Shown here: positions 22,142 through 22,635 of the stretch, piece by piece
Position numbering within the stretch: the stretch's first letter is position 1
How the letters are laid out: each line of letters opens with the position of its first letter
NCBI RefSeq assembly: GCF_024054565.1
Contig: NZ_JAMXLR010000020.1
Span: forward strand, 1 to 64,000
From: Aeoliella straminimaris
GTDB lineage: Bacteria; Planctomycetota; Planctomycetia; Pirellulales; Lacipirellulaceae
Direction of reading: 5' to 3'
DNA: 64,000 nucleotides
Translations under genes and position numbers: made by a program
The notes under the pieces: model-generated
The model's input: only the letters and a program-made list of their open reading frames with translations
Database searches by the model: none
Told to the model about the DNA's origin: nothing

Positions 22142-22167
22142 AACAGAAGGAAACGAAGAGAACAAAG
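22142..22167 (+). repeat. Left 26-bp inverted repeat around the GxxExxY gene
   Basis: This segment pairs with 22610-22635 at 24 of 26 positions. The core CAGAAGGAAACGAAG (22144-22158) is a perfect 15-bp match. It lies between dciA and the GxxExxY gene. Confidence 0.85.
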
Positions 22168-22196
22168 AATAGGATTGAGAAACTCAGCGATCTAGC

Positions 22197-22601
22197 ATGC
22201 ACAAATTGTATTCGAAAGCAGATGCACTCTCACGCGAAGTGATAGGAGCGGCCATCGAAGTACATCGGGACAAAGGCCCTGGATTGCTGGAATCGATTTA
22301 CGAATGGTGCCTGTCAATGGAATTGGAGTTGCGTGGGCACACTGTCGAAACACAGAGGTTGGTAGTGGTGCAATACAAGCAGTTTGAACGGCAAGATCCG
22401 TTGCGGTTCGATCTACTTGTGGACGGATGCCTGCTGGTGGAGGTGAAGGCCGTAGAAACGGTTCCACCCATTAGCAAGGCGCAACTACTCAGCTACATGA
22501 AATTGCTTGATATACCATTGGGCTTGGTCATCAACTTCAACACGATGAAACTTACTGACGGGTTATCACGGCTGATATTGCCAGGAGCGAATGGCGAGTA
22601 A
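22197..22601 (+). CDS. GxxExxY protein
   Basis: A 134-aa protein of the GxxExxY family, a PD-(D/E)XK nuclease-like fold of unknown biological role. The name-giving motif is seen as [11 protein letters not shown] (Gly, Glu, Tyr in order, about residues 29-39). The nuclease-like core follows: [17 protein letters not shown] gives the D and ExK residues at about 79-95. A C-terminal segment, [15 protein letters not shown], is typical of the family. The gene interrupts the conserved dciA-gyrB order and is bracketed by a 26-bp inverted repeat (22142-22167 and 22610-22635), so it appears to be an inserted cassette. Proteins of this family are common as scattered singletons in planctomycetes and other environmental bacteria. 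Confidence 0.9.
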
Positions 22602-22609
22602 ACGAACAC

Positions 22610-22635
22610 CTTCGTTCACTTCGTTTCCTTCTGTT
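22610..22635 (-). repeat. Right 26-bp inverted repeat around the GxxExxY gene
   Basis: Reverse complement of 22142-22167 at 24 of 26 positions. It lies 9 bp after the GxxExxY stop codon and about 46 bp before gyrB. Confidence 0.85.

Follow-up and report, generated by a model that had tools for sequence, protein, structure and literature searches.

A GxxExxY gene inserted between dciA and gyrB in Aeoliella straminimaris is bracketed by two inverted arms, each of them a tandem array of short words. Such arms flank most of the members of this family that were examined, their words are specific to the lineage of the protein, and gene-less copies with the same kind of ends are dispersed in the genomes. 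The gene is present at some sites in one species and missing from them in another. We consider it somewhat probable that these units are minimal elements resembling REPtrons, in which a predicted nuclease would recognise the words of its own lineage and spread both the cassette and MITE-like hairpins. The word-array unit is very widespread and seemingly undescribed in the literature searched, which comprised open-access articles, few subscription journals and no preprints. Among 5.39 million open-access papers, just three refer to the GxxExxY family by name or accession, and a literature passage on the family gives no function for it.

The cassette and its protein

The window, that is, the whole stretch of 64,000 nucleotides that was analysed, carries dnaN (20624-21739) upstream of the genes and repeats listed in Table 1. 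A preliminary description of this DNA stated that the order dnaN-dciA-gyrB is split by a GxxExxY gene, and the positions of the open reading frames (ORFs) together with profile matches confirm this arrangement. The inverted flanks that it reported, matching at 24 of 26 positions, were recovered at exactly the same coordinates by an inverted-repeat search as 26-nt arms that are 92% complementary and separated by 442 nt. Between 21900 and 22900, no second inverted repeat of at least 12 nt accompanies them. The arms pair when the segment is folded as single-stranded DNA (z -4.2), and within each arm words of 8-10 nt are repeated in tandem.

Table 1. Coordinates of the cassette, its neighbours and related repeats in the window
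Feature	Position	Strand	Remarks
Single arm AACAGGAGCAAACAGAGAGAACAGAGGAG	2202..2230	-	word lineage same as window cassette
dciA	21743..22117	+	PF05258; left neighbour, context
Left arm	22142..22167	+	tandem words AACAGAAGG-AAACGAAGAG-AACAAAG; same word lineage at L169 and L160 (other genomes, sister proteins)
GxxExxY protein gene, 134 aa	22197..22601	+	PD-(D/E)XK, modelled as Cas4/lambda-exonuclease type; E32, D72, E82xK84, Q96xxxY100 conserved
Right arm	22610..22635	-	inverted copy of left arm, 24/26
gyrB	22682..25240	+	right neighbour, context
ORF-less hairpin, CACTAAT/CGCTAAT words	25976..26042		word class of GxxExxY copy L005, same genome
Single arm, words CACGCAAAGGCGCAGAG	26560..26585	+	from sequence
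Second ORF-less CACTAAT hairpin	26594..26660		66/67 identical to 25976-26042, direct orientation
ORF-less hairpin, CACGGAT words	37085..37152		

The encoded protein is a member of the family by both TIGR04256 (E 5e-36; 123.6 bits, cut-off 35) and PF13366 (E 6e-34; 117.3 bits, cut-off 22). The ORF inside the arms matches these two profiles only, which agrees with the earlier observation that the unit contains no known transposase. The GxxExxY motif reads GLLESIY (residues 29-35), and E32, D72, E82-x-K84, Q96 and Y100 vary little or not at all.

A sequence-profile search found no relative of solved structure for this protein. Its AlphaFold model (pLDDT 93.7) is matched best by the Cas4 protein SSO0001 (4ic1; Foldseek probability 1.00; VIA-align Z 8.6 over 103 residues), and lambda exonuclease and AdnAB are among the further structural matches. 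A Holliday-resolvase fold was considered and set aside; Hjc scores Z 5.8, below the Z 8.6 of Cas4 and within the range of common matches. Fold and D...ExK...QxxxY residues are shared with the Cas4, lambda exonuclease and RecB-type enzymes (4ic1, 3slp, AdnAB), from which the GxxExxY protein differs in being a stand-alone protein of 134 aa with no adjoining CRISPR or recombination partner. The PD-(D/E)XK-like character proposed in the preliminary description is upheld by the fold and by the catalytic D and E-x-K, both of which are kept, and we model the protein as a nuclease of the Cas4/lambda-exonuclease type whose activity is predicted. GxxExxY genes are under purifying selection, with dN/dS values of 0.16 and 0.08 in the two shared insertions of a genus designated g2 for which the ratio can be estimated.

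Word arrays and the protein tree

The genome of the window contains ten GxxExxY genes, all with inverted repeats close by whose sequence differs from place to place. Words at the ten loci are CACGGAT, ACACAGAT, CACTAAT, CGCCAAG, CGCAGAG, CAGGAT, CGCGGAT and the window's own AACAGAAGG/AACGAAGAG. An arm typically consists of about three tandem words at a spacing of 8-10 nt (mode 9), and the opposite end carries them inverted. By inspection, inverted word arms are present at 38 of the 39 GxxExxY loci in the window's order. A scan of one genome per species covered Proteobacteria, Acidobacteria, Chloroflexi, Cyanobacteria, Bacteroidota, Verrucomicrobia, Planctomycetes, Armatimonadota, several candidate phyla and methanogen archaea. 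It was made with the GPGLLES subfamily (other subfamilies are known from the window's order alone), and in 80 loci from it a locus's own left and right arms score at least 20 in 61%, as against 7% of mismatched-locus pairs. Bracketed genes are spread over about 15 phyla, and related inverted ends recur both within the order and across phyla. The suggestion that the gene moves with terminal inverted repeats stands as regards the inverted ends. A single conserved terminal inverted repeat for all copies does not; the words differ by lineage instead.

These differences follow the protein. AG-ending words accompany proteins that have a C-terminal K.G insertion, and AT-ending words accompany those in which the insertion is absent. 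The raw word table gives 87:1 with K.G and 3:15 without. After hand reassignment of five loci (L004, L103, L128, L010 and L174: two with truncated tails, one caught by the pattern and two outside it), the K.G class has 89 AG and 0 AT words, and the remainder 1 AG and 17 AT. A tree of 134 proteins has two switches of word class, compared with 16 in shuffles, and none of 500 shuffles is as low; an independent-pairs test on word class offers few contrasts because the class changes only twice. Protein identity is correlated with arm similarity over 111 loci, shared insertions excluded (Mantel r 0.486, p 0.001), in a relationship made up of one deep split plus finer clades; the Mantel and rank tests leave some phylogenetic dependence.

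Finer clades share words at unrelated sites. CGCCAAG is common to L006, L014 and L158, CACTAAT to L005, L032 and L174, and ACAGGAT to L004, L022 and L168. Words of the AACAGRAG type are common to the window cassette and to L169 and L160, which encode sister proteins at other sites in other genomes. Random, locus-specific arms are ruled out by this agreement with the protein tree. The same agreement means that the arms are part of the element and not of its target. The co-evolution of words and protein also gives good support to the proposal that word recognition by GxxExxY proteins is lineage-specific.

Of some 110 loci in the K.G class, about 16 have no arms, and many of these are in Bacteroidales. 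A mostly Bacteroidota clade without recognisable arms (L089, L105, L106, L121, L130 and L132) possibly represents resident copies. Unlike this clade, a Bacteroides finegoldii locus (L293) has clear arms, and the GxxExxY gene of this species at NZ_OY725952.1 15222-15596 encodes a protein of the CACAGAG type. In Sphingomonas parapaucimobilis (L303), an armed GxxExxY gene lies between fabD and fabG.

Gene-less arrays and sites of gain and loss

A strict three-word pattern identifies 32 exact arrays in the window's genome and 1244 arrays in 39 genomes, versus 14 with the reversed pattern. Over these 39 genomes, the number of arrays rises with the number of GxxExxY copies (rho 0.73, p 1.5e-7). Seven genomes without the gene hold 13, 0, 0, 1, 0, 0 and 0 arrays. 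The exception with 13 arrays is G010, a genome 95% complete in which no GxxExxY gene was detected.

Three ORF-less hairpins in the window (25976-26042, 26594-26660 and 37085-37152) are dispersed copies with the same kind of ends, as in MITEs, and the first two are recently copied. An ORF of 141 aa with no Pfam match (26101-26526, minus strand) lies between these two near-identical hairpins. Elsewhere, hairpins or arms of one word type are nested in the loop of another's (L242, L244, L246, L250, L254 and L255), and other small unrelated ORFs occur within the nested arrays at L246 and L255. Hairpins may pick up such ORFs as cargo. In the window's genome, a repeat close to GCCGGAAGCGTCAGCGCCCGGAG recurs just outside or upstream of the arrays at L246, L250, L254 and L255. 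The 3'-terminal 45 nt of gyrB with its stop codon (25196-25240) recur with 43 of 45 positions identical at 25917-25961, after a DUF433-DUF5615 gene pair (25280-25896). This arrangement looks like an insertion of the pair at the 3' end of gyrB that duplicated the tail of the gene.

Empty sites were looked for in relatives and were found. In three genomes of the same genus (G001, G002 and G003), about 30-110 nt separate dciA from gyrB, with no GxxExxY gene in this spacer, and elsewhere in the order every readable dciA-gyrB junction likewise has none. Several junctions hold ORF-less hairpins of similar words, including CGCAAAG in G017 and G043 and, in G004, a CACTAAT hairpin nested within one of CGCAGAG. 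Among relatives, the gene occurs sporadically and many copies are broken. Some insertions in genus g2 are common to species (L157/L166, L022/L168, L161/L167 and L158/L175, the last broken in G043), and three are filled in one species and missing in another. In other species, those three sites carry hairpins with different words or no insert at all. G039 has a clean empty site at site C (L162), and the G043 allele of site A (L172) retains TTAACCAC, which may represent either the former target or what was left after a loss. The reading of the gene as a mobile cassette is strengthened by these three additional presence/absence sites, by the co-evolution of words and protein, and by dispersed arrays whose number tracks that of the gene.

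Forty-eight anchored loci give no signal of a target-site duplication of 2-8 nt. An inverted duplication of the target flank was also considered and not adopted; about 12 flank bases recur in inverted orientation at L172, but the effect over the 48 loci is weak. No near-identical gene-bearing cassettes were found at two different sites, and gene-bearing copies may therefore move rarely. Carriage as phage or plasmid cargo was rejected, with one viral contig, 8 of 72,556 plasmids and no match to phage DNA.

Analogous elements and candidate mechanisms

The closest working analogue of the GxxExxY unit is the REPtron, a RAYT gene with its REP, REPIN or BIME repeats (PMC2817692, PMC3116915). Both have one small nuclease-type gene in an intergenic position between inverted repeats that are also dispersed in many gene-less copies, and in both the repeat sequence co-evolves with the protein. 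However, RAYT is an HUH/Y1 tyrosine transposase, whereas the GxxExxY protein has the PD-(D/E)XK fold, and REP palindromes have a GTAG head, whereas each end of the GxxExxY unit consists of tandem words of 8-10 nt that pair with those of the opposite arm. Since it has no HUH transposase, the unit falls outside the REPtrons. It also differs from DDE-type insertion sequences in that it has no transposase ORF, shows no duplication at 48 loci and has terminal words that vary by lineage.

In the mechanism that we favour, the unit comprises about 0.5 kb, with two inverted arms of some three 8-10-nt words each around one small gene for a putative PD-(D/E)XK nuclease. The protein would bind the words of its own lineage and act on paired or extruded arms, either in a cruciform or in a single-stranded hairpin at a replication fork. 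With the help of host repair, the cassette could spread to new intergenic sites without target-site duplication. The same protein might also act in trans on hairpins that have these words but no ORF, much as RAYTs do on REPs. Co-evolution supports the DNA-binding step, and we infer cutting, excision and insertion. Because no target-site duplication is evident, insertion coupled to repair or replication fits better than a DDE-type reaction.

A second, unrelated family has the same architecture. S23/IVP genes of the window's order have arms at 30 of 32 loci (score at least 14; 9% for mismatched pairs), and 53 of 56 arms are built of words with a length of exactly 7 nt. All eight S23/IVP genes examined on cyanobacterial plasmids lie between inverted arrays, seven of which are clearly heptameric. 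Loci of this family with heptamer arrays are L070-L075, L265-L292 and L294-L301. At two of them (L296 and L298), on plasmids of Anabaena sp. 90 and Pseudanabaena galeata, the S23/IVP gene lies between cas6 and cas4. Cyanobacterial STRRs are heptanucleotide repeats. S23/IVP arrays are the likely origin of these STRRs (the term used in PMC5088731), which belong to the S23 branch of the shared architecture and not to GxxExxY.

The intervening sequences (IVSs) of 23S rRNA that carry S23 genes were reportedly proposed long ago to be mobile. Like the GxxExxY unit, an IVS with S23/IVP (PF05635; PMC4990558) combines one small ORF with inverted arms of tandem short repeats in about 0.4-0.5 kb. Unlike it, the IVS encodes a four-helix bundle that is no nuclease and has 7-nt words in place of 8-10. 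The window cassette has inverted arms of tandem short words with a period mode of 9 instead of 7, and its protein matches PF13366 and no four-helix-bundle S23 family. The two families together support a general class of element. Since the non-nuclease S23/IVP family has the same design, we caution above all that the GxxExxY nuclease cannot be assumed to be the motor.

This shared design also bears on an alternative that we regard as unlikely, in which the cassette is an IVS-like RNA element. Its transcribed arms would form a stem cut by RNase III or another RNase, which would make an insertion into an operon or rRNA harmless. The stem would be bound by GxxExxY and S23 proteins, and other machinery would disperse the element by reverse transcription or recombination. 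S23/IVP genes are known inside 23S rRNA IVSs, the Coxiella rRNA IVS with an S23 gene is processed by RNase III and combines a 28-bp terminal stem with tandem heptamers (PMC4990558), and the window cassette sits between co-oriented, probably co-transcribed genes. However, arm mismatches have no sense-strand G-U bias (115 versus 126 antisense), which argues against RNA-strand selection on the arms, and the Cas4/lambda-exonuclease type of PD-(D/E)XK is a DNA nuclease fold.

It is improbable that the gene encodes a homing-like selfish nuclease that cuts insert-less or lone-array alleles, with the cassette copied in by double-strand-break repair. The fold with its intact active site and the recurrence of different elements at the same intergenic sites in related species favour homing, but the sites of copies within one genome differ widely, and allelic homing leaves the dispersed hairpins at non-homologous sites unexplained. 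Equally improbable is a resident defence, repair or toxin gene flanked by chance by REP-like terminator or supercoiling hairpins that spread otherwise; such hairpins are common between genes and some Bacteroidales copies have no arms, but words and protein vary together, the number of arrays depends on that of the genes, and related genomes have the gene only here and there and often in broken form.

A broader version of the preferred, REPtron-like reading is put forward tentatively. GxxExxY proteins may be a new class of DNA-mobilising enzyme, a stand-alone Cas4/RecB-like PD-(D/E)XK protein that recognises tandem-word arrays in inverted arms and moves both itself and MITE-like hairpins with no duplication of the target. 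Along with S23/IVP elements, such proteins could account for a large share of bacterial short tandem and inverted intergenic repeats, cyanobacterial STRRs included. If the nuclease is the motor, the transposition chemistry would, to our knowledge, be without precedent. GxxExxY, a common family with no assigned function, gains a testable role in the word-specific recognition of its own ends, and experiments can now ask whether it drives a very small transposon-like element. The shared architecture links three separate puzzles, namely what GxxExxY does, where rRNA intervening sequences come from and how the heptamer repeats of cyanobacteria arose.
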